The notes beneath the pieces are model-generated. The model ran no database searches. It had not been told where the DNA came from and saw only the letters and a program-made list of their open reading frames with translations. A program made the translations under genes and the position numbers. Below are positions 3,418 to 30,590 of a stretch of 64,000 nt of DNA, in pieces. This DNA is from Labia minor (Eukaryota; Arthropoda; Insecta; Dermaptera; Spongiphoridae). The stretch is from positions 39,397,787-39,461,786 of the forward strand of contig OY720346.1 in NCBI GenBank assembly GCA_963082975.1, read 5' to 3'. Each line of letters begins with the position of its first letter. The stretch's first letter is position 1.

Positions 3418-3540
3418 CTAGCTGCTCAGAGCTCCTTCGTCGCTCTTCACATCTAGACGGGGGCTCCGCCCCCTGTACCCCCGAGTGGTACATAGTATTT
3501 GGTTGAAAGTAGTAAAAGGTTTTCATCCATTTTGTTTCAA
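3418..3540 (-). mobile_element. Helitron-like 3' end, copy 1
   Basis: On the minus strand this short GC-rich block has a GGGGGCGGAGCCCCC hairpin, then a decayed second hairpin (GAGCGACGAAGGAGCTC). It ends about 9 nt later in CTAG followed by T. A hairpin shortly before CTRR and insertion next to T are hallmarks of canonical Helitron 3' ends. The copy at 28592-28714 has the intact hairpin. No 5' TC end is clear. Confidence 0.5.
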
Positions 3541-3651
3541 ACAATGTATAACATAAAACATTCATTTCTTATTGTGTGATTATTTAAAATATATTTTAAT
3601 TTATTTAGTAAATTAATTATATATATTATTATTGAATATGTTATATCTATC

Positions 3652-3975
3652 TACTCGAAAGTTCTTGGCAGCTACAACCACATTTCTCCAAGTGTCCCCG
3701 GTGACCTCATCTTTCTTTGGCCAATAAATGCTGGAAAGAATAATCTGAATCTACTCTCATCTCCCAGGGTCATAGACCATGCGTGGCTCAACGGTACTCG
3801 AAAGTTCTTGGCAGCTACAACCACATTTCTCCAAGTGTCCTTATCCTGAGCCTCTGTTCCATCTCTCGTACGTCATTCCCTGATGTACTCATCTTTCTTT
3901 GGCCCATAAATGCTGGGGAGAATCCTATTCTCTGAATCCACTCTCATCTCCAAAGATCATAGACCATGTCTAACA
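3652..3975 (-). pseudogene. two copies of a LINE reverse-transcriptase C-terminal tail
   Basis: Read on the minus strand, each unit (about 3797-3975 and 3652-3796) encodes pieces of the tail that ends many arthropod non-LTR ORF2 proteins. First comes a YGPKKDE-like element, then an AQDKDTWRNVV..AKNFRV element (K/R-rich, Trp, Ala-Lys). Frames are broken. The two units are direct repeats of each other (the start at 3652 recurs at 3797), so this is a local duplication of a decayed 3' end. Similar tails lie at 41250-41440 (minus) and 52970-53320 (plus). I cannot name the clade. Confidence 0.55.
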
Positions 3976-5344
3976 CTCATATAATACAACAGACAAAATA
4001 ATTGTTTTATATATTTTAATTTTCATTCCCTTTTATAATAATTTTGATGAGATAAGCCTCTTTACTGCATGATAACAGGCGTTTTCCGATTGCAACTTCG
4101 ATTTCAATTCTTCTCAAATATTATTATCCTTCGTGATTACATTCAATTTTTCTACATATTCAAATTCTACATTTTGTATGTTAATACTGCTCCTGTTTGT
4201 TTCTAAATATATTTATTTATCATTATTAATTTCAAACCTCATCTCTTTTCCTACCTCGATTAATTTTTCCTCGCTATCTGTAATTGCAATTGCCGAATCT
4301 CCTATTATATTTAAGTCGTCTGGGTCACCTAATATTTTACAATTGATTTCCACATCTTACTCTTTCTTTACTACCTTCAAGATAAATTTTAAGATCAAAA
4401 TTTGAAAAAGTTTATCCGGATCTATTGAGTCATGCGTAGGTTTTACTAAAGTCTACAAATAATTAGTAAACAGAATTATTGAATTCGCGGTTTTTTTAAT
4501 ATCTGTCATAATGAAAATACCTTAATTAATGTTGATCGAATTGGCCTGAACCCGCAATGATATCGTCTAATATTTCCTCCGCCTATAGTTTATAAGTATT
4601 GTATATGTTATAATAGAGTATAATATTTCTTGATCATTTCATTTTGATATTTTAATTTCATTGCTTGATTTTTATTGAATATTTTTAATTATAATAAAAT
4701 TTGAGAAAATGCAAAGTTAGAGACTTGAGACAATTTATAAAAATTAATTTATAAAAATTAACGGTATAAAAGTATTGATAAAACTAAAGATAAATTAACA
4801 ATATATACATTCATTAATAGTATTAATTTAAATTAATGGATTTATTTGATTTTTTATTATTAAGTTCATTTATTAATTTTTTTAGATCATAGTTAATTCC
4901 CTCCCTTAAAATAAAAGAAGTATTCAAATATAGAAAGAATAAATACAAAATAAAATTTAAGTTAAATATGATTTAAATATTTTATTAAATTAATTAAAAT
5001 GAGAACTTTTAGAATAAATTATTTAATTGAAATGATATTTGAATATTAGAATTTAAAATAAAAAGTGAAATATTATAATAATTCTTTGATAGGGAATTTC
5101 TTTTTTGTTTGTTTCTATGACAGCAAAAAAGTAAACAAATTACATACATACATACATACAAACACTCTCCTTTATATATATAGATTAGAAATTAATTTAA
5201 TATAATTTAACATATAATAATATATTAAAATATTTTATTTTATAAATACATGATTTAGTAATACTGATTATTAATGTAAATATAAATAATAATATTTAAT
5301 ATGGCAAATATGTAAAATTTTGTAAAGAATGTATCAGAAGTTTA
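3976..5344. other. AT-rich non-coding stretch with one small repeat
   Basis: There is no gene. A fragment at 4635-4726 (family E) matches 47550-47647 closely. The open frame at 4133-4405 is composed of Ser/Ile/Phe-rich translated AT sequence and has no recognisable domain. Confidence 0.55.
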
Positions 5345-5382
5345 GTGTCTAACATTCTGGCGTATTGCGCATGCGTATATCT

Positions 5383-5490
5383 GTCGGGTCGATCTCACCG
5401 GTCGGGTCGTTTTCGAACGGTCGGGTCGATCTCACCGGTCGGGTCGTTTTACGAACGGTCGGGTCGATCTCACCGGTTGGGTCGTTTTGG
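5383..5490 (+). repeat. GC-rich 37-bp tandem repeat, about 3 units
   Basis: Units start at 5383, 5420 and 5458 with GTCGGGTCGATCTCACCGG, and each carries a second GGTCGGGTCGTTTT half. The array is strikingly CpG-rich inside very AT-rich DNA. It is open in more than one frame on the plus strand, which is expected for such repeats and is not evidence of a gene. Confidence 0.85.
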
Positions 5491-5575
5491 AATCTCACGC
5501 GAGTTCTATACTTTTTCCCCATCCCGCAAAAGTGCTCAACGCCGCTAAAGAAGTTTTCACTTCAAAAATATTCTG
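5491..5575 (+). repeat. family F repeat end
   Basis: From CACGCGAGTTC onward the sequence matches 62805-62880 almost exactly, ending at the GCCGCTAAAGAAG and CACTTC motifs. The tandem array just upstream is probably part of the same element but is absent from the other copy. The element class is unknown. Confidence 0.6.
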
Positions 5576-5922
5576 AAGATTAATTAAAATTAAATTGTTA
5601 ATTAATAAAAAATCTTATTTGGAAGAATCATATATAAAATTATTAGATTCTACTAAATAGATCAAATTTATTTTGAATCTAACTAATACATATCTATACG
5701 TTCCCGCCGATATGTACTACCGGTGGCTCATTCCGCCATATATATGTACACTCACGTGTAAAGTAATGGATTAACTCTCTTTTTATTAAATTAATGATAA
5801 TTTTGAGGTTTCACTACATTATTTATTATTTAAATATATTTTCCAAATAGTATAATGTTAAAATTGAAATATTTAATTAATTTATTTTGTCTAAAAAGTT
5901 ATGATGACATTTTAGTTAATTA
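5576..5922. other. AT-rich non-coding stretch
   Basis: Nothing recognisable lies between the family F end and the retroelement target site. Confidence 0.6.
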
Positions 5923-5926
5923 TAAG
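5923..5926. repeat. target-site duplication (TAAG), left
   Basis: The four bases TAAG directly precede the 5' LTR, and the same four follow the 3' LTR at 15712-15715. A 4-bp duplication is usual for Ty3/gypsy integrases, and its perfection indicates an undisturbed insertion. Confidence 0.9.
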
Positions 5927-6839
5927 TGTAATATAGTGGAGATATATTGTCTTGGTGTGATGGAGATGTATTATATTTGATATATTGAAAATATATTATC
6001 TTAGTGTAATGGAAATATATTATTATGTTATCTTTAGAATGTGTGGGAATAGATTATATAAAATACATTATGTCATAAATTAAGAATGGGTTAGTATAAG
6101 AAGAAGGAAGTTGAGTTTGCATTTCATAAGCCGTGGGAAAAATATAATCGTTGTCCACTGATCAAAGGTGATCGTTATGTAAGAAAAGAAAGATTACTAA
6201 TGGGTGCAACGGAGACAGAGGATGAGAGAAGGAGATGGCGAAAGGGGAAGGAGGGGAGGCTCAAGGTGAGATGAACCAAAAGCGGCAGAGAGTGTGGCAG
6301 TCAGTGAATAATGTACACGAGAGAATAAGTGATTGAATTATCGATAATTATAAGATGTGTGTGTTAATTTTGATCTGTTTAGTGAATCTGTGCTCCTGGC
6401 CAGGAAAGTGTGAGTAAAGCAAATTTAATTATATCAAATGCATTTGAATAAATTCGTATGAAATTGATTAAATAAATGAATTAATTTGGATAAGATATAT
6501 TAAATAAGTTAATGTAAAATTGATTGAATAAATAAAGTAAATAATATGAATTATAATTAACCGAATTAATATAAAATTAATTAAATAAGCAAGTTGAATT
6601 AAATGAGTTATAATTAAAAGAATTAATGTAAAATTGATTGAATAATTAAATTAAATAATATAAATTATAATTAACTGGATTAATATAAATTTAATAATTG
6701 TAACTAAATGAAATAAATTATATTTGAATTAAATTAAATGATGTTTTTAATAAACAATTAACACATTCGTCGTATATAGGTGGCATGATCTCGTACCTTC
6801 TTTCTAGCATTGGTGCAAGTAAGTACGCGGCCCAATACA
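5927..6839 (+). repeat. 5' LTR
   Basis: The LTR starts TGTAATATAG and ends CCCAATACA. It should hold the promoter, polyadenylation signal and R region. TCAGTG at 6301-6306 resembles an arthropod initiator and could be the transcription start, but no matching downstream element is clear. A GTAAGT splice-donor consensus lies at 6819-6824 near its 3' end. The second half is AT-rich with ATTGATTAAATAA-like tandem motifs. Confidence 0.95.
6819..6824 (+). promoter_or_regulatory. candidate splice donor in U5 (GTAAGT)
   Basis: GCAA|GTAAGTAC is a good 5' splice-site match 16 bp before the LTR end. If transcription starts upstream in the LTR, joining this donor to the acceptor at 12923-12924 would give a spliced env mRNA, as in gypsy. 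This is inferred; other GT dinucleotides near the gag start could serve instead. Confidence 0.35.
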
Positions 6840-6841
6840 AC

Positions 6842-6859
6842 TGGTGTCAGGTGTGGGGT
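6842..6859 (+). other. primer-binding site, tRNA-Leu-like
   Basis: Two bases after the LTR the sequence reads TGGTGTCAG, then GTGTGGG. TGGTGTCAG is the complement of a 3' end ..CTGACACCA, which from memory is the tRNA-Leu of the GTCAGGA type. The GTGGG that follows fits its T-stem after two mismatches. Assignment to Leu is therefore likely but not certain. Confidence 0.65.
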
Positions 6860-7101
6860 TGAGGGTTTAGGGGTAGAGAGTAAAATAATTAAGCAAAATT
6901 TTGAGGATTGCATCGATAAAATTTAATTAAAATGGGAATATTTTGTTAATAGTTTAATTCCTTTCAAACCAAAGATAAAGTAAAATTCTGAGAGCAGGGA
7001 TACGGAAATTTGGGAGTATTTAAGTGAGGGAGAGTACGATAAAATTAAACCCTAGACCTGGTGTTTGCTCAACATCGAAGTTGAAAGCACCCCCACGAAA
7101 C

Positions 7102-8025
7102 ATGGAGGAACAGATCCATAATTTGGAACAACAATTAGGACAATTGCAGGCCCAGTTATCAAATCTGACTGGGGCGGCTGGTCCCGTGGAGGTACGCGTC
7201 AATCGAGACCCTAATTGGGGAATAGTGGAGGGGATGTCGCCCTGGACGGGGACAGGACAGATTGACCTATTCCTCAATAAATTTGAGCAATTGGCCAAAA
7301 TGGGTAACATACCCGAGGACCAGAGGAGGGAGGTCTTGGAATGGAAGCTGGAGGGAACGGCGTTGAGAGTCGTCAGAAATTTACCAGGAGATATCACTTG
7401 GGAAGGGGTGAAGGAACAACTGAGAGCGAGGTTCAAGCCGGAAGACACGGCCACCCAAAGGATGAGAATGGTCCTGACTATGGGTCAAACTCCGCAAGAG
7501 AGTGCAGCGGATTATCTGGATCGATTACGAGATGCAATGGCCGGAATAGATTGGGCGGGTACAGGAATTACCCTATTGGCTCGGTTTCTAGAAGGGCTCA
7601 GAGGCGAACCGGGTAGACAAGCCCGAGTAGCAGCCCCCACGACCGAGGAAGGAGCCTTACAGATTGCACAACGGTGGGAAAAAGAGGGAAGGAATGTCCC
7701 GGAAACCCGCTTTACCTACCCATGGAGACGTAGAGACAACACACGGTTCACGAGTAACCCTGCGATTAGGGGCAGGTGTTACAATTGTAATCGGGAGGGA
7801 CACATGGCTCGGATGTGCCCCATAAAGAGGGAACCGAATAGTACCATTGGGGGTACAGAGAAAAGAGGGAACATCAAACCCCGTGAAGGATGCTATAGGT
7901 GCGGGAGTAGGGAGCACTTTATAAGGCAGTGTCCCCGACCTCCCCAGGTAAAGTGTGTGGCCGAAGAAAACATCCATACGCAAGTGGCCCCAAAAGAGTT
8001 CGGACTCCCTCCGCCCCAAGAGTGA
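7102..8025 (+). CDS. gag: Gag polyprotein (capsid and two CCHC zinc knuckles)
   Basis: This is the 307-residue structural protein that assembles the particle and packages RNA. The first ATG of the frame is at 7102; the frame is also open back to a GTG at 7024, which I do not use. The N-terminus is a heptad-like Gln/Leu-rich segment (residues about 5-20, probable coiled coil). The middle (about 45-190) has the Trp-rich retrotransposon gag capsid pattern, with WTGTGQIDLFLNKFEQ and an LPGDITW..VKEQLRARF element. Two CX2CX4HX4C knuckles start at residues 226 and 264. The TGA at 8023-8025 lies inside the frameshift hairpin, so readthrough into pol is in the -1 frame. No matrix or myristoylation signal is obvious. 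Confidence 0.93.
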   Translation: MEEQIHNLEQQLGQLQAQLSNLTGAAGPVEVRVNRDPNWGIVEGMSPWTGTGQIDLFLNKFEQLAKMGNIPEDQRREVLEWKLEGTALRVVRNLPGDITWEGVKEQLRARFKPEDTATQRMRMVLTMGQTPQESAADYLDRLRDAMAGIDWAGTGITLLARFLEGLRGEPGRQARVAAPTTEEGALQIAQRWEKEGRNVPETRFTYPWRRRDNTRFTSNPAIRGRCYNCNREGHMARMCPIKREPNSTIGGTEKRGNIKPREGCYRCGSREHFIRQCPRPPQVKCVAEENIHTQVAPKEFGLPPPQE

Positions 8026-11000
8026 GTCCGAAGAGATTCGGATCTCTCCTGGTAACCGCAATCAACACCAATGCGGATAAGGCTACTAGAGTGAGACTGA
8101 GTATAGGGGGACGGGAATTGGAGATGCTAGTGGACACGGGGTCGGAAGTGTCGATCTTAAAAGCTCCTATTCCAGATATCCCTGTAATGGGATATCCGCG
8201 AAATGCGTGTGGAGTTACGGGAGATCTGTTGCCCATTAGTGGTCAACAAACGCTTCCGATACTGGTGACGAAGAGAAGAATCATGCATCCATTCATTATT
8301 TGCGATGTACGGATAGCGGGAGATGGGCTCCTGGGAATGGATGTGTTGACCGCTTTGGGAGCGGTGATTGATGTGCAGAAAAGGGAGTGCCGTTGGAACG
8401 GCACAGCACGAGGTAACGGGAAGGGGAAAAGGGGCGTTGGGAATGGGAGTAATTTGGAGATTATTCCCCTGGAACGACCTAGAGGAGTAGTCAGCACTGA
8501 AACTGATGACACGGAATTTGGAGCCATTAGTGGCATTCCGCCTGTCACCGGGATAGATGAAGTGCAAGAGGAGGTCGTGAGAGCGCGAGTAATTGGCACT
8601 AGAAAAGATGACACGGAATTTGAAGCCATTAGTGGCATTCCGCCTGTCACCGGGATAGAAGGAGGGCCAGAAGAGGTCGTGAGGGCAAGGGTAATTAGCA
8701 CTGGGAAAGAGGACACGGAATTTGAAGCCATTAGTGGCATTCCGCCTGTCACCGGGGTAGAAGGATTGCCAGAGGAGGTCGTGAGAGCAAAACAGAGGAA
8801 AGTAATTCCGGCGTGGTCCGAGGTAGTGGTCTGGGCTGAGGTAGATAATGCACAAGATGGCTCAGAAATGGTAGTGGAACCGGTTATATTGGCGCAACCA
8901 GTGTTACGGGTAGGGCGGACTTGTGTGAGAGTCGAGAAAGGAAGTGTACCGGTCAGAGTAATAAACTTATCTAGTAGGAAGGCAGTGATAGATCGTCGCC
9001 AACAACTTGCCAAAGCCAGCACGATACCAATATTAGACCAAAGTTGTATTTGCCGAGTGCAGGTGGTTGAACAAGAGACCAAACATCAATGGGTATCTAA
9101 GTTCAAGGAAAAGTTGACCCACCTGCCTGAAAATCACCAACATCAGATGTTCGAGCTATTGAACGAATATGCTTCATTGATGTATGAAGAGGGAACAACG
9201 GGATTGGGTTGTGCACTAGGTGTGAAGCATAAAATTGTCACTGAAGGATCAGCTCCCATCTTTAAACGACCCTATAGAGTGCCGCATGCGATGAGACCCG
9301 AAGTAGAAAAACAGATCGGGAAGATGCTAGAAGAAGGAGTGATTGTAGAATCAGATTCGCCATGGTCAGCACCCGTAGTACTAGTACCCAAAAAGAGTAC
9401 AGACGGGAGGGTTAAATATCGATTTTGTACTGACTACCGAGCTCTGAACAGTGTAACGAAGATTCCGGTGTATCCGATACCTAATATCACGGAGACGCTA
9501 GAATCCTTAGGAAATGCACAATATTTCACTACCCTAGACCTGGCAAGTGGGTACCACCAAATTCAGGTAGCTCCAGAAGATAGAGAGAAAACCGCATTCA
9601 CTACTTTTATGGGGCATTTTGAGTACGCAAGAATGCCGTTCGGTTTAGCCGGGGCTCCAGCTACTTTCCAACGCTTGATGGATCGGGTGTTGGCTGGAAT
9701 TAAGGGAAGCGAATGTTTCGTATATCTAGATGATGTGGTAGTATTTGGTACAACATTTTCGGAACATCAAAGAAGGTTGCGAAACGTATTCGAATGCCTC
9801 CGACAGGCAAGACTGCAAATACAACTAGAGAAATGTCATTTCGCGGTGGGAGAAGTTGGGTACCTGGGGCATCGGGTGGGGAAAGATGGAGTTCGACCCG
9901 ATCCAAAAACAGTGGAAGCGATTAATAACTACCCACAACCGAAAAACGTAAAAGAGATACAACAGTTTCTGGGACTCTCAGGGTGGTACAGGAGGTTTAT
10001 CCCTGAGTATGCTAATATTGCGAAGCCATTGACGGTCCTCACAAAGAAAGACCAGAAGTTCCAATGGGGTAAGGACCAGGAACAAGCGTTTCTTTCTCTC
10101 ACAAAATTCCTGTGTAGTGACACCGTACTCGTTTATCCAGATTTCACACTACCGTTTATCTTGGCCACAGACGCCTCGAACGAGGCTTTAGGCGCAGTGT
10201 TATCACAGCGTCGAGACGGATATGAAAGGCCGATTGCGTACGCCAGTCGAACGTTGAACAAGGCCGAAAGTAACTACACAGTAACGGAGAAAGAACTACT
10301 TGCTGTAGTGTGGGCGACGCAACAATTTCGGTGTTACCTATATGGGAGGAAATTCCAACTGATAACTGACCACGCGGCCTTGAAATGGATGTTAAGTCTG
10401 CATGATCCGTCACAGCGGTTGACACGATGGGCGCTACGACTGGCGGAATATGACTATACAGTAGAACATCGACCGGGGAAGTTACATCGGAATGCGGATG
10501 CTCTCAGCAGGGTGAAAGTTAGTGAGGAAGGCCCTGAGTCGAAGGTGCATACGATTCGAACTTTATTGAGAACCACAGCGACCGAAAAAGAATGGCGCGA
10601 ATCACAAGATCAAGATGAGGACTGTCAGCGGTGGGCACGGAGCGGCAAAGCCCAAGCAAGATCCGATGGGTGTTTGTACGTAGTAGATGATCACCAAACC
10701 CGTCTAATGGTACCCCGAGAAAAGGTGCCCATGATATTGGAAGAGAATCATGATAGACCCACAGCGGGGCATAGAGGGGTACAGGGAACCTTATCACGAA
10801 TCCAGCGACAATATTTTTGGGAGGGAATGGAACGGGACGTAGAGTCCTGGGTGAAACAGTGTAGTATATGTACCCAGATGAAGTCGCCAACTGGACTTCG
10901 AGCTCCCGTTCAACCACATGAGATCCCCAGAAGGCCCTTCCAAATGATAGCACTAGATGTCGTGGAATTCCCGAAGTCCACCCGAGGTAATAGATACCTT

Positions 11001-12899
11001 TTGACGGTACTAGATCACTACTCCCGGTACTTGGAAGCGATACCCATACCAAACCAAACAGCGGCCAGAGTGATCCGTGCGCTCACGGAAGAAGTAATAA
11101 GCCGGCATGGGATCCCAGAAATCATCTTAACCGATCAAGGAAGAAATTTCACCTCTAAACTATTCCTGGGACTATGTCAACGTTTAGGAATAAAAAAGGT
11201 ACAAACAACAGCCTATCATCCAGAATCGAACGGACGAGTGGAAAGGGTACACAAAACAATAAAGGAGATGCTTCGACCGTGGGTGAGAACAGACGGTAAA
11301 GACTGGGATGTTTGGTTGCCATACGCGTTAATGGCTTATCGGAGCGGACCCCATTCCAGCACTGGGTTTTCGCCGAATGTGTTAGCATTCGGCCGGGAAA
11401 CAGACATTAATATCACCGTAAAAAATCAACATCATCAAGAAGAGCCAGATAGATGGTCATATCTAAACGACTTGTGTGACCGGATAGAACATCTACAACA
11501 ACGGTCGATAAATCAGTCGGAAGCCAGGTTACAGGCGAGCAGGAAACAGGCTAATAAACATCGAAAATTCCGAAGGTTCGAGGTAGGGGATGAAGTATAT
11601 GTATACAACCCCGTTCTGAAAGAGTCAGAAGCTCGGAAATTTTATAAGCCTTGGAAGGGCCCCTACACAATAGCGACAAAAAATTCCGAAGTGGTATATG
11701 GAGTGTGGTGGAGCCCCACTAAGATTGTCAACATACATGTGAATCGTTTAAAACCAGCCAATATAGAACGCCGCGGAGTGAACCGTGTATATGAACACAC
11801 GGGAGATATGTTGATGGCACCCAAAAATTACGCCCTAGCTCATTGCGTATCGGCCGACTTACGCATGTCCCAAGGTGTTGCAAAAACTATACGAGACACC
11901 TATCCGAGGCACCCTTGCGAAAAGATCCCAGAACCAACCATCGGAGAGATCCTAGTACAATACCACCCAGATAGAGTAATACTTCACTGTGTCACGAAAA
12001 CAAAAGCGAGTGACAAGCCGCGCCCTGAAAACGTGAAAATGACAATCAAGAACCTTCTACTGAAGGCGACCGAGGTAGGAATCCCAGCATTGGCGGTTCC
12101 GCGCTTAGGATGCGGAATGGACGGCCTCAAATGGGTACAAGTCAAGAAGTGGCTAAAAGAGCTAACCCCCGACTACCCGGTGAGAGTACACGTATACACA
12201 CCAGCGGCCATTGGAACCCCAACGCCAACTGATGATGAAGAGGAGAAAAACCGAATTTGGGAGAGCGATTCGGATGACGATGTGTGGTCAGGGGAAGAGG
12301 ACATTTCATTGAGTCCGTGGCGAGAACAGAATGACTCCCAGCCCAATTGGAATGGAGTAGGACAACTAGATTATTCCGCAAGACCCAGCGAGATAGAGGA
12401 GATCGAGCCAGAAGGGGAGAAAGAAACACCCCCTGTAATTAATTTAGAAAGCCAAGATGAAATAGACATCGCAGAGGCACTAAGGGAAGAGGAATCCCTC
12501 AGAATTGACAGAAGAGATCCAGAGTCTGGGCGACAGGAGACAGAGACCGGTGAGCACGTTACTCAAGGGGAAACAGGACAAACTTCGCAGGATGAAGAAA
12601 GTCAAAGGGAGGAGGGGTGGGAGGATATAGATTCCCCGGCTAGCCCGGAGAAATCACCCAATGCTCGGGACCAGAATGCACACCCTCCTCACACACCACC
12701 CAATAGAGATGTCCCGGTTAGGGGTAGCGTGGAGGCCCAACCCAGTACCAGTAGCCCGGGGACAAGACCTCCCACAACAGCCGGGGCGACAAAGAACCCT
12801 AATACGAGTAAACCACCCGTTGGAGTCCCACCAAAAAAGAGAGGGGTAGGGCGTCCTAAAAAGAGAACCATTTGGAATTTCCATAAAAAAAAGGAGTAA
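7929..12899 (+). CDS. pol: Pol polyprotein: protease, RT, RNase H, integrase, macro domain, acidic/AT-hook tail
   Basis: The frame is open from 7929 (1656 codons). It needs no start of its own, since it is entered by -1 frameshifting near 7995. Residues here count from 7929. The protease has DTGS at 69-72 and a GLLGMD flap-side element. A threefold 34-residue repeat follows. The RT (about 440-650) has catalytic YLDD at 599-602. The RNase H has TDAS (Asp748). The integrase has an HHCC finger from His941 and the triad Asp1010, Asp1069, Glu1105 (D,D35E spacing exact). A GPY-like element begins at Gly1244. Most gypsy Pols end soon after this. Here a TARG1-like macro domain (about 1287-1425) follows, then a Glu/Ser/Pro-rich tail and a GRPKKR AT-hook-like motif at 1641-1646. 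No internal stop or frameshift is seen, so it may be active. The stop is 43 bp before the env ATG. Confidence 0.95.
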   Translation: MSPTSPGKVCGRRKHPYASGPKRVRTPSAPRVSPKRFGSLLVTAINTNADKATRVRLSIGGRELEMLVDTGSEVSILKAPIPDIPVMGYPRNACGVTGDLLPISGQQTLPILVTKRRIMHPFIICDVRIAGDGLLGMDVLTALGAVIDVQKRECRWNGTARGNGKGKRGVGNGSNLEIIPLERPRGVVSTETDDTEFGAISGIPPVTGIDEVQEEVVRARVIGTRKDDTEFEAISGIPPVTGIEGGPEEVVRARVISTGKEDTEFEAISGIPPVTGVEGLPEEVVRAKQRKVIPAWSEVVVWAEVDNAQDGSEMVVEPVILAQPVLRVGRTCVRVEKGSVPVRVINLSSRKAVIDRRQQLAKASTIPILDQSCICRVQVVEQETKHQWVSKFKEKLTHLPENHQHQMFELLNEYASLMYEEGTTGLGCALGVKHKIVTEGSAPIFKRPYRVPHAMRPEVEKQIGKMLEEGVIVESDSPWSAPVVLVPKKSTDGRVKYRFCTDYRALNSVTKIPVYPIPNITETLESLGNAQYFTTLDLASGYHQIQVAPEDREKTAFTTFMGHFEYARMPFGLAGAPATFQRLMDRVLAGIKGSECFVYLDDVVVFGTTFSEHQRRLRNVFECLRQARLQIQLEKCHFAVGEVGYLGHRVGKDGVRPDPKTVEAINNYPQPKNVKEIQQFLGLSGWYRRFIPEYANIAKPLTVLTKKDQKFQWGKDQEQAFLSLTKFLCSDTVLVYPDFTLPFILATDASNEALGAVLSQRRDGYERPIAYASRTLNKAESNYTVTEKELLAVVWATQQFRCYLYGRKFQLITDHAALKWMLSLHDPSQRLTRWALRLAEYDYTVEHRPGKLHRNADALSRVKVSEEGPESKVHTIRTLLRTTATEKEWRESQDQDEDCQRWARSGKAQARSDGCLYVVDDHQTRLMVPREKVPMILEENHDRPTAGHRGVQGTLSRIQRQYFWEGMERDVESWVKQCSICTQMKSPTGLRAPVQPHEIPRRPFQMIALDVVEFPKSTRGNRYLLTVLDHYSRYLEAIPIPNQTAARVIRALTEEVISRHGIPEIILTDQGRNFTSKLFLGLCQRLGIKKVQTTAYHPESNGRVERVHKTIKEMLRPWVRTDGKDWDVWLPYALMAYRSGPHSSTGFSPNVLAFGRETDINITVKNQHHQEEPDRWSYLNDLCDRIEHLQQRSINQSEARLQASRKQANKHRKFRRFEVGDEVYVYNPVLKESEARKFYKPWKGPYTIATKNSEVVYGVWWSPTKIVNIHVNRLKPANIERRGVNRVYEHTGDMLMAPKNYALAHCVSADLRMSQGVAKTIRDTYPRHPCEKIPEPTIGEILVQYHPDRVILHCVTKTKASDKPRPENVKMTIKNLLLKATEVGIPALAVPRLGCGMDGLKWVQVKKWLKELTPDYPVRVHVYTPAAIGTPTPTDDEEEKNRIWESDSDDDVWSGEEDISLSPWREQNDSQPNWNGVGQLDYSARPSEIEEIEPEGEKETPPVINLESQDEIDIAEALREEESLRIDRRDPESGRQETETGEHVTQGETGQTSQDEESQREEGWEDIDSPASPEKSPNARDQNAHPPHTPPNRDVPVRGSVEAQPSTSSPGTRPPTTAGATKNPNTSKPPVGVPPKKRGVGRPKKRTIWNFHKKKE
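7989..8032 (+). promoter_or_regulatory. -1 ribosomal frameshift signal (CCCAAAA plus hairpin)
   Basis: The heptamer CCCAAAA at 7989-7995 is in the correct phase relative to gag (C CCA AAA). Three bases later a perfect 9-bp inverted repeat, TTCGGACTC (7999-8007) and GAGTCCGAA (8024-8032), encloses a 16-nt loop and contains the gag stop. Pol is exactly in the -1 frame and open across this region. The spacer is shorter than the usual 5-9 nt, but the lowest pairs could be open in the ribosome. Confidence 0.75.
8508..8792 (+). repeat. 102-bp (34-codon) tandem repeat inside pol, 2.8 units
   Basis: Units start at 8508, 8610 and 8712 with an exact 102-bp spacing that keeps the frame. Each encodes DTEFxAISGIPPVTG followed by an acidic EEVVRAR element. 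It lies in the linker between protease and RT. The units are so similar at DNA level that the expansion is recent. Its role is unknown; a flexible or protein-binding spacer is a guess. Confidence 0.9.
11787..12203 (+). other. macro domain (TARG1/OARD1-like) at the C-terminus of Pol
   Basis: Residues about 1287-1425 of Pol. It opens with a GDML element, corresponding to the GDLF start of the family. ALAHCVSADLRMSQGVA follows, matching the family's LAHCIS.D.RM..GIA loop, and the GCGMDGLKW motif comes later. Macro domains bind ADP-ribose. TARG1 removes ADP-ribose from acidic residues using Lys84 and Asp125 (from memory). The equivalent residues here, Lys1357 in VTKTKASDKP and Asp1398 in GCGMD, are both present, so hydrolysis is plausible. 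Length (about 139 residues) is close to the 152 of TARG1. No protease cleavage site is evident, so it may stay attached to integrase. Alternatives within the macro superfamily are less likely because of the KASxKP and GCGxD pair. Confidence 0.88.
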
Positions 12900-12924
12900 T
12901 GTTTCTTTGTTTCTTCTCTCACAG
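12900..12924 (+). promoter_or_regulatory. strong splice acceptor before env
   Basis: A pyrimidine tract (TTTCTTTGTTTCTTCTCTC) runs directly into ACAG, with the exon starting at 12925. It lies one base after the pol stop and 17 bases before the env ATG. This is what is expected if env is translated from a spliced subgenomic RNA. Confidence 0.75.
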
Positions 12925-12941
12925 GCCAAACTAACGATGCG

Positions 12942-14738
12942 ATGGGGAAGCAGGCGAGGGAGAGGGAGGAGATAATGCCACTGGGAGTCTATTTTGAACC
13001 AGTCGACGATGTGATAATTACGGGAGATGAGTGGCGGATTGTAACGGAAGTCGACGTGAAAGAGATTCAAGGGAAGGTATCGGTCATCAGGGATTCTCTG
13101 GAGAAATTACAGGATGACCGATACGCTCTCTTAGAAGGAGAACCTTTGAAGACAATAGATTTTAAGGAGGATATGTCCTATATTAAGACCAGTTTCGAGA
13201 TGACGGAGGGGATTATTTCACATTTGAGTGAAATGCTACCCCCGGCGCGAAGTCGACGTGGTCTGGTGGACGCGGGGGGGCACGTTTTAAAATTCATTTT
13301 CGGAACTTTAGATAATGAAGATCTGGTGGAATTGAATACCAGATTACAAAATTTAAATGAAGTTAATGAACAAATGAGTCATTACTTCGATGATCAAATC
13401 ACAGCATTAGACCAACTCGACCATAAAACTAATCAAAATTTCGACTTGATTAAACAACATGCTAGAACATTATTGGAATTAGCCACTTTGATAGACCGAA
13501 ATTTTAATTGGACACTTGGACGGCAAAACGCAGCCGAAAAATTTTTTCAAGAAGCGTTAGAATTAATGACTAAGACACGACGCCTGGGGCAAGCAGTGAC
13601 GTCAGTTCGAAACTGGTTAGAGGATGTCCTCGGGATTGTTCAATCGGCGGCAGCGGGACGCCTCGATGCGCGATTGATCAACCCAAAAATGTTATTAGAA
13701 TTAATGATAGATATAAATAAGAAACTCCCCGAAGGACAGGAATGGCTGACCCCGCTAGAATTACGATTTGTTTATAAGTACTATGACACATCATTAGTGA
13801 AAGTGTATAGTGTCAGGAACGCTATCCGTTTCGTGATCTCACTTCCGTTGAAGACAGTATCCCAGTCAGGAACAATATATTTCGTTCATGTTGTGCCGAC
13901 AGCTCGGGGGGGAGTGAGGACCAAGCTAGTGAAAATTTCCCCGTGGATCCTCGTAACGCATGACCACCAAAAATATACCACGCTAGAACATAGATATGTG
14001 GACAGCTGCCGGGGACGGGAGCCGATGGTGTGTCAACAGCCTATTCCACTCGTAGCCCGATCCCAACTCAGTTGTGTCAGCGCCCTCTTCTTCAAACACG
14101 CGGAGCATCTAGACAGTTACTGCTCATGGGAAGTGTTATTAGGGGCGATTACTGATTTTTGGGAACCATCATATTCTGGTTCCCATTGGTATTATAGTAT
14201 ATCACGACCTCAAGTGGCCCGGCAAAGTTGCCGTACCAATAGCAAACCTAGATTCGATGATATCCAACTACATCAACAAGGCATCGTTACCGTTCCGGAG
14301 GGATGTCAGCTATATACAAATCAACATCTGTTGATGTCTAGGAGCGCGGGTCAATCGAGAGTCACGATAACAACTCCAGTGATATTTACCGGCCATAAAG
14401 AAGAACCCCTAATAACAGAGACATCACGTAAGGAGAACACAATAATGGCGGAGGGACTGAAAAGCTTGGAGTCGATAAGAGCTGAGTTGGGAAGGACCTC
14501 GATGAGTGTTCCATTATCCAGGTTGCGGGAGGAGGCGAGGTTGATACAGAGCAAAAGGAAACAGCATCTTATCGCTGGCGGGACCGGTGGTGGAGCAGTT
14601 TTAGTGAGTCTGTGTGGACTGGTGGGGTATCTTTGGTGGAAGAAGTGTACACGGAGGAAGAGGAAGGCCGGGAAACTGCAGAATCAACTGGGAAGTGATG
14701 TGGACATAGACAAAACAGAGGAGGGGTCGAACTGTTGA
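12942..14738 (+). CDS. env: envelope fusion glycoprotein (errantivirus/baculovirus F-type)
   Basis: This is a 598-residue open frame with the layout of the F-like Env of insect errantiviruses, a membrane-fusion protein. A furin-type RSRR site at residues 103-106 is followed by a glycine-rich fusion-peptide-like segment with the conserved GLVDAGGHVLKFIFGTLD pattern. Amphipathic heptad stretches follow, about 115-200. One clear N-glycosylation site (Asn-Trp-Thr) is seen near 190. A cysteine-containing ectodomain, a single membrane span at about 543-566 and a basic cytoplasmic tail complete it. The N-terminus (MGKQAREREE) is charged and is not a signal peptide. The frame stays open upstream through the splice acceptor to 12900, so an upstream exon could supply one. 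Otherwise the copy would lack secretion. Confidence 0.88.
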   Translation: MGKQAREREEIMPLGVYFEPVDDVIITGDEWRIVTEVDVKEIQGKVSVIRDSLEKLQDDRYALLEGEPLKTIDFKEDMSYIKTSFEMTEGIISHLSEMLPPARSRRGLVDAGGHVLKFIFGTLDNEDLVELNTRLQNLNEVNEQMSHYFDDQITALDQLDHKTNQNFDLIKQHARTLLELATLIDRNFNWTLGRQNAAEKFFQEALELMTKTRRLGQAVTSVRNWLEDVLGIVQSAAAGRLDARLINPKMLLELMIDINKKLPEGQEWLTPLELRFVYKYYDTSLVKVYSVRNAIRFVISLPLKTVSQSGTIYFVHVVPTARGGVRTKLVKISPWILVTHDHQKYTTLEHRYVDSCRGREPMVCQQPIPLVARSQLSCVSALFFKHAEHLDSYCSWEVLLGAITDFWEPSYSGSHWYYSISRPQVARQSCRTNSKPRFDDIQLHQQGIVTVPEGCQLYTNQHLLMSRSAGQSRVTITTPVIFTGHKEEPLITETSRKENTIMAEGLKSLESIRAELGRTSMSVPLSRLREEARLIQSKRKQHLIAGGTGGGAVLVSLCGLVGYLWWKKCTRRKRKAGKLQNQLGSDVDIDKTEEGSNC

Positions 14739-14783
14739 AAAGGATTGTTTCGGGAAAAAACTTTACCCCGAAACAATCTTTTT
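14738..14783 (+). other. stable hairpin between env stop and polypurine tract
   Basis: GATTGTTTCGGG (14743-14754) pairs perfectly with CCCGAAACAATC (14767-14778). The stem extends by a G-U and several A-U pairs to about 17 bp with a 12-nt loop. It starts at the last base of the env stop codon. In the RNA it could be an export, packaging or stability element; this is inference. Confidence 0.75.
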
Positions 14784-14784
14784 T

Positions 14785-14798
14785 AAAGGGTGGGGGAG
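14785..14798 (+). other. polypurine tract
   Basis: AAAGGGTGGGGGAG directly abuts the 3' LTR, with a single T interruption. This is the expected plus-strand primer. Confidence 0.85.
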
Positions 14799-15711
14799 TG
14801 TAATATAGTGGAGATATATTGTCTTGGTGTGATGGAGATGTATTATATTTGATATATTGAAAATATATTATCTTAGTGTAATGGAAATATATTATTATGT
14901 TATCTTTAGAATGTGTGGGAATAGATTATATAAAATACATTATGTCATAAATTAAGAATGGGTTAGTATAAGAAGAAGGAAGTTGAGTTTGCATTTCATA
15001 AGCCGTGGGAAAAATATAATCGTTGTCCACTGATCAAAGGTGATCGTTATGTAAGAAAAGAAAGATTACTAATGGGTGCAACGGAGACAGAGGATGAGAG
15101 AAGGAGATGGCGAAAGGGGAAGGAGGGGAGGCTCAAGGTGAGATGAACCAAAAGCGGCAGAGAGTGTGGCAGTCAGTGAATAATGTACACGAGAGAATAA
15201 GTGATTGAATTATCGATAATTATAAGATGTGTGTGTTAATTTTGATCTGTTTAGTGAATCTGTGCTCCTGGCCAGGAAAGTGTGAGTAAAGCAAATTTAA
15301 TTATATCAAATGCATTTGAATAAATTCGTATGAAATTGATTAAATAAATGAATTAATTTGGATAAGATATATTAAATAAGTTAATGTAAAATTGATTGAA
15401 TAAATAAAGTAAATAATATGAATTATAATTAACCGAATTAATATAAAATTAATTAAATAAGCAAGTTGAATTAAATGAGTTATAATTAAAAGAATTAATG
15501 TAAAATTGATTGAATAATTAAATTAAATAATATAAATTATAATTAACTGGATTAATATAAATTTAATAATTGTAACTAAATGAAATAAATTATATTTGAA
15601 TTAAATTAAATGATGTTTTTAATAAACAATTAACACATTCGTCGTATATAGGTGGCATGATCTCGTACCTTCTTTCTAGCATTGGTGCAAGTAAGTACGC
15701 GGCCCAATACA
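14799..15711 (+). repeat. 3' LTR
   Basis: It has the same length and ends as the 5' LTR, and I see no base difference on reading the two side by side. It supplies the polyadenylation site of the genomic RNA. Confidence 0.95.
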
Positions 15712-15715
15712 TAAG
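15712..15715. repeat. target-site duplication (TAAG), right
   Basis: It matches 5923-5926 exactly. Confidence 0.9.
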
Positions 15716-30014: not shown

Positions 30015-30590
30015 TTAGGTTCCGGAAAAAGTAATTTACGTTTTTGTCTTGTATTAATTTGATAGATATTTATGGTGTTCTTTAGACGTTATCATAAAAG
30101 TGTTTATTTCTTCTGAAAGCTTATTTTTTGCTCTTTCCATCATGTATAGATCTTTGTAATCCAATTTAATTGAAATATTATATTTCAGGTTTAATATGGT
30201 ATACTCCAGCTCTATTATTCGTGCAACTTTGCTTTACGAATTCAAAAATCACCTTAAAGCAGCAGAAGCGGCACGTCGAATTCGCAATGCCTTTGGGGAA
30301 GATTCCGTAAGTGATGAAGTGGCACGGTTTCGGCGCTTTAAAAGCGATAATGAAAGCATTGAAGATGAGCAACGCCAAGGTCGTCCTCAAGGGTGCTCTG
30401 ACGATAAAATCAAACAATTTTTGGACAATAACCCTCGTACAACATGTTCAAAAATCGGTGAAGCATTCAACTGTGATGAATCAACCATCAGAAAAAGATT
30501 ACATGCAATGAATTTTATAAAAAAAGTTAGACAAATGGATTCCGCATAAGTTAAGTGAAGACAACGAAATTATGCGTCTGACTGAAGAAT
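30015..30590 (+). pseudogene. mariner transposase N-terminal relic (mellifera-like)
   Basis: The left end TTAGGTTCCGGAAAAAGTAA follows TA and resembles mellifera-group mariner ends. The open piece 30196-30549 (117 residues) is the paired-type DNA-binding half. It has LLYEFKNHLKAAEAARRI, a DEQRQGRPQG AT-hook-like linker and a second helix-turn-helix around CDESTIRKRLHAM. A frameshift near 30535 is followed by WIPHKLSEDN, the family's linker motif. The catalytic DDD half is missing and is replaced by an unrelated integrase relic. The element is dead. Confidence 0.8.

Follow-up and report, generated by a model that had tools for sequence, protein, structure and literature searches.

TARG1 (also called OARD1 or C6orf130) removes ADP-ribose from glutamate and aspartate and from thymidine in DNA, and its K84A variant did not rescue cells from DNA ADP-ribosylation, according to the cited study (PMC8501950). 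A review extends its substrates to the terminal phosphates of DNA and RNA (PMC11088682). Among retroelements, macro-domain ORFs turn up occasionally in the epsilon-like endogenous retroviruses of fish, as stated in a review citing Basta et al. 2009 (PMC4977317), and these were the only macro-bearing retroelements among the matches listed in the open-licence literature; none of the same matches described a macro domain within the Pol or integrase of an LTR retrotransposon. The chromodomain is a known accessory domain (PMC6338049), and the coding regions of retrotransposons have gained DNA methyltransferases more than once (PMC5890265). A macro domain in a retroelement is thus not quite unprecedented, and the capture of enzyme domains by retroelements is already known.

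Here we describe a Ty3/Gypsy element with a TARG1-type macro domain fused behind its integrase. It resembles the fish epsilon-like retroviruses in being a retroelement with an apparently acquired macro domain, but the review describes additional ORFs in the retroviruses of ray-finned fish (PMC4977317), whereas the domain described here continues the integrase of a Ty3/Gypsy element in a single fused protein. As in the retrotransposons that captured methyltransferases, an enzyme of nucleic-acid modification appears to have been taken into a coding region, although the enzyme, the element classes and the hosts differ from those described there (PMC5890265). With the chromoviruses the element shares an extra domain at the integrase C-terminus; unlike them, it has a macro domain of catalytic type and no matched chromodomain.

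Structure of the element

The window, a 64,000-nucleotide stretch of the Labia minor genome, contains one intact LTR element at 5927-15711, flanked by the 4-bp target-site duplication TAAG (5923-5926 and 15712-15715). Its 5' LTR (5927-6839, TGTAATA...AATACA) and 3' LTR (14799-15711) are identical over their whole length, which is 913 bases after trimming by the TG...CA ends; the identical run itself spans 915 bases (5925-6839, offset 8872), its first two bases (AG) belonging to the flank at one LTR and to the polypurine tract at the other. All coding features lie on the forward strand, as do the LTRs. The gag ORF (7024-8025) matches Retrotrans_gag and CCHC zinc knuckles in Pfam and overlaps the pol ORF (7929-12899). 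Within this overlap lies a candidate -1 frameshift heptamer, CCCAAAA (7989-7995), at which a -1 shift would join the two frames. In Pol, Pfam recognizes a protease, RT, RNase H, integrase H2C2, rve and Integrase_p58_C, followed by the macro domain (11781-12203) and a low-complexity tail (12204-12899). The region from the integrase core (rve) to the GPY-like Integrase_p58_C, at 10929-11756, corresponds to residues 11-286 of the translated segment 10899-11800; in the window copy p58_C scores under the curated cut-off, and it matches the GPY-like element that the first-pass annotation had noticed after integrase. The env ORF (12942-14738) is of the Baculo_F type (Pfam E 6.9e-28).

The LTRs, gag, the order protease-RT-RNase H-integrase and the p58_C/GPY module, the last below cut-off in this copy, place the element in Ty3/Gypsy (Metaviridae), and the Baculovirus-F env of the window copy, a member of what we call family A, is of the errantivirus type. 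No chromodomain was matched by Pfam in the 3' part of Pol that was scanned (11520-12899 and 12270-12899), as a chromovirus would have. The G+C content is 44% within the element versus 26% outside, which may hint at a recent arrival from elsewhere.

Tandem repeats were seen at several places in the element. A 102-bp unit occurs in three in-frame copies at 8485-8790, in pol between protease and RT, and 57-bp units lie inside the LTRs (6499-6733 and 15371-15605). Family A copies differ in length between the macro domain and the LTR end, which suggests that the number of 57-bp units varies among them. Elsewhere in the window, a mariner-type transposase fragment (HTH_48) lies at 30160-30549.

The macro domain and its catalytic residues

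Pfam assigns the segment after integrase to Macro with a significant profile match, TARG1 ranks first in PDB sequence and fold searches with the window domain, and the predicted fold is nearest to the TARG1 structure. Chance similarity to TARG1, considered as an alternative, is ruled out by the Pfam assignment together with the sequence and fold matches. The TARG1-like macro domain proposed behind integrase in the first-pass annotation is thereby borne out. Besides being its best match in sequence and structure, TARG1 shares with the domain its predicted fold, its length, an HCxSxDxRM-type loop, a TK motif with Lys84 and a GCGxD motif with Asp125. It differs in that the domain here is part of a retroelement Pol, behind integrase, and only about 30% identical. 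It also differs in a YPRHP/K...LVQY/FH segment (YPRHP...LVQYHP) that is common to families A, B and F, similar in D, and absent from both human TARG1 and the host's own TARG1.

Asp125 has a catalytic role in TARG1. In the alignment to TARG1, Lys1357 (11997-11999) corresponds to the catalytic Lys84 and Asp1398 (12120-12122) to Asp125, exactly the pairing that had been predicted from the sequence. The pair (Lys80/Asp121 in the numbering of alignment A1) is kept in all seven A1 rows, which represent families A, B (two rows), C, D and F and one further protein, and in which only 8 columns are invariant. Likewise, Lys76/Asp117 are found in 49/49 rows of alignment A2, comprising the window domain and 48 database proteins. 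The surrounding loops are more variable: the GCG loop before the aspartate is present in the window, B and D and one residue off in F (GCR), family C retains Lys and Asp without the PRxGCG loop (SKEDLVTD in its place), and family B has ILKE at the position of ITKK in TARG1.

Copies and families in the same genome

Searching the genome from which the window comes (604 Mb, 71 contigs) returned at least 123 matches, all of which were placed in the tally. Family A accounts for at least 56 full-length matches at 94-100% identity and 7 fragments; 55 of the 56 are free of stops, and 47 of the 56 are stop-free matches within open frames of at least 1594 aa. At least 31 matches, including a diverged subfamily (L017), form family B, with 38-41% identity to A and long frames (at least 1491 aa) in 20/31. 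Family C comprises at least 23 matches at 24-25% identity, 12 of them in frames of at least 1490 aa. Families D (L016, 32%) and F (L018, 40%) are single matches. Of two further loci, L020 is a broken copy that bears an integrase, and L019 (36%) is interrupted by seven stops. The remaining two match rows are the exons of a single gene, the TARG1 of the host itself (L021), with an intron with GT...AG ends between them. A one-off fusion is ruled out by these many copies and families: other copies carry the macro segment, and the fusion occurs in several copies, which the first-pass annotation had named as a finding that would support it.

By Pfam, all three B copies scanned (L009, L010, L011) have the order RNase H-integrase-p58_C-Macro, and both C copies scanned (L012, L013) have RNase H-integrase-p58_C. 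Pfam Macro gave no match for the family C domain, nor for P0048, a database protein described below. A four-copy family C profile finds human TARG1 at 8.8e-20 in a PDB search, and hhalign gave 99.8% for family C against a TARG1-type alignment; family B alone finds TARG1 at 2.5e-14. The Macro match is below the Pfam cut-off in D, F and the database protein P0055, and in D and F the assignment comes from the genome search and the alignment. In family D, integrase lies in one frame segment and the macro domain in the next. In the two B copies (L009, L010) and two C copies (L012, L013) with located LTRs, env is absent and pol is followed by the 3' LTR within about 200 bases.

A basic motif was seen in several Pol tails. 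The tail of the window copy ends in GRPKKRTIWNFHKKK (12840-12899), and the similar GRPPKRKIFNFHKRK / RSRKRTYWNFMSRR occur in the tails of families C and D (L012, L013, L016). We take this motif to be AT-hook-like.

Constraint on the macro domain and its proposed function

When five diverged family A copies were each compared with the window, the macro domain had dN/dS values of 0.13-0.22 in all five. The integrase gave 0.14-0.19 and the Pol tail (12261-12896) 0.50-0.86, each in four of the five copies, one copy per comparison being left out since it could not be aligned without gaps; the tail values were computed without gaps, may be inflated by small indels, and include two of four copies with a stop. 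Across all 15 pairs of six family A copies, the macro values ranged from 0.12 to 0.59, the highest on few changes. In family B, ten pairs gave 0.00-0.37, and in family C the value was 0.36-0.54 in the four of six pairs where it was defined, in both families on few changes. At least in family A, the macro domain thus seems to be held as tightly as the integrase.

These values bear on whether the domain is simply a passenger, a chance fusion tolerated as harmless. Such a view would fit the weakly constrained look of family C and the single matches that represent D and F, the D copy having its RT and integrase split over separate frames. It is difficult to reconcile with a macro domain as constrained as integrase when the tail that follows it in that frame is looser (in an ungapped tail comparison), with persistence of the domain across families at only 24-41% identity to A, and with the occurrence of the fusion in what seems to be another lineage (below). 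We regard a passenger as highly improbable.

We instead consider it rather probable that a Ty3/Gypsy lineage acquired a TARG1-type domain behind integrase and uses it as an active ADP-ribosyl hydrolase that clears ADP-ribose for integration or repair. The TARG1/OARD1-type domain would have been fused in frame behind the integrase C-terminal domain and retained by several descendant families. Made as part of Gag-Pol and presumably active as an ADP-ribosyl hydrolase, it would be carried with integrase in the particle and the pre-integration complex, where it could strip ADP-ribose from integrase, from the element cDNA or its ends, or from proteins at the integration site, such that removal of the host-added ADP-ribose would allow integration or repair to finish. 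We infer the hydrolase activity, the travel with integrase and the target. The domain is best read as an eraser acting where integrase acts because of its position on the integrase C-terminus, the presence of both catalytic residues, and the integrase-like constraint; the kept residues and the constraint favour ADP-ribose stripping at least in family A.

A working-looking domain across families suggests that ADP-ribose tagging is something these elements either fight or exploit. An active domain would give LTR retroelements a counter-defence like those of RNA viruses, but located on the enzyme of integration, and would point to ADP-ribosylation as a host defence or as a control of integration against transposons. 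The proposal is directly testable, as the domain is small and the catalytic residue is known.

Fusions elsewhere and origin of the domain

A protein search with the 3' part of Pol gave no match, and a search with the macro domain alone returned one protein. The seven-row profile, run against 5.8 billion proteins, gave 86 matches of 92-279 aa, of which 25 sequences were inspected; the candidates were limited to proteins of about 92-292 aa, and full-length Pol fusions would therefore be missed. Three of the 25 are integrase-macro fusions, namely P0055 (a partial gene model from the beetle Molorchus minor), P0033 and P0048. In PDB searches TARG1 was matched by P0048 at 5e-28 and by P0055 at 1e-28. 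In these three proteins the integrase ends in (V/I)VHFNRL(A/T)P, versus the VNIHVNRLK type in A and similar ends in B and C, and because of this difference the fusion seems to be present in a further, second lineage of Gypsy elements. P0029, a gene model from the snail Nucella lapillus in which a Gypsy RNase H is joined to a TARG1-like domain, may be a fusion or an annotation artefact, and was left out of the count together with P0076, a mixed model.

Among viral contigs, we found no relatives of the integrase-macro junction, P0048 or P0055. Profile A3 detected TARG1-like stretches in one viral contig and 8 bacterial-genome loci. In the fold library, VP8 of Kadipiro virus is close to the window macro domain, with the highest TM score by query length (0.92), and several thrips-associated RNA-virus (virga-like) proteins also have close folds. 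This recurrence of close macro folds in viruses, along with the macro ORFs of fish endogenous retroviruses (PMC4977317), would fit a domain whose main task, as for the macro domains of RNA viruses, is to oppose antiviral PARPs in the cytoplasm or particle, integrase being only a convenient site of carriage. A domain in gag or in a separate ORF would suffice for that purpose, however, and in A, B, C, D, P0033, P0048 and P0055 it lies behind integrase. We think this account somewhat unlikely, noting that it shares the hydrolase step with the eraser proposed above, so that the odds of the two overlap.

Two macro trees were computed, the first from 85 of 95 rows, after exclusion of 10 proteins whose macro match was shorter than 115 residues, and the second from 56 of those 85, 29 having been dropped after the first tree as long-branched, as near-duplicates or for thinning. 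In both, support is weak at most deep forks, and the bootstraps had not converged. An A/B/D/F clade is supported in the first (100/98) and second (98/97) tree, and the three foreign fusions form a clade of their own (99/97 and 95/97). Family C is isolated on a very long branch, with about 4 changes per column, and the host TARG1 does not group with element rows in either tree. AU tests did not reject joining A/B/D/F to host TARG1 (p 0.33), to C (0.30) or to the foreign fusions (0.19), nor C to the foreign fusions (0.52), nor uniting every fused row in a single clade (0.29). Since none of these groupings is rejected, independent capture is not established by the trees. The macro domain itself was probably captured by the element.

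It seems unlikely to us that the integrase-tethered TARG1 is a dedicated repair tool, clearing ADP-ribose from new element DNA or from the integration complex. If it were, invertebrate hosts would restrict LTR retroelements by ADP-ribosylation, and Gypsy lineages would have captured an eraser independently at least twice.

Family C and the sites of insertion

In chromoviruses, the chromodomain sits at the integrase C-terminus. The macro domain lies directly behind the integrase C-terminal domain, the position of a chromodomain, and could be a reader: by binding to chromatin or repair factors that carry ADP-ribose, it would steer integrase in place of a chromodomain. Family C lacks the GCG loop, yet 12/23 of its copies lie in frames of at least 1490 aa; judged from the lost loop and the looser constraint, the family C domain may only bind or may be decaying. 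A reader function is possible, most of all in family C. Overall, however, we judge it improbable, given that all of A, B, C, D and F retain the catalytic Lys and Asp, and that the one sequence target examined, a 161-bp satellite, is not a general target, in a comparison of sequence flanks rather than of chromatin.

The satellite forms an array at L041 1-2534, and some B copies are inserted in it (also L010, L061 and L067). Flanks were examined for 29 of the 31 B copies, 15 C copies and 21 A copies, and the LTR end was found in 29, 13 and 19 of them, respectively. The satellite covers the whole downstream flank in 3/29 B, 0/13 C and 0/19 A copies, and part of it in two B and two A copies; L047 and L048 share their initial flank bases, so that one of them is probably a duplicate. 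After the first two B copies were found in tandem arrays, a preference of family B for the satellite was considered, but it was rejected with the whole flank covered in only 3 of 29 copies. In another B locus, L011, hAT and copia pieces (3484-7001) directly follow a truncated B copy.
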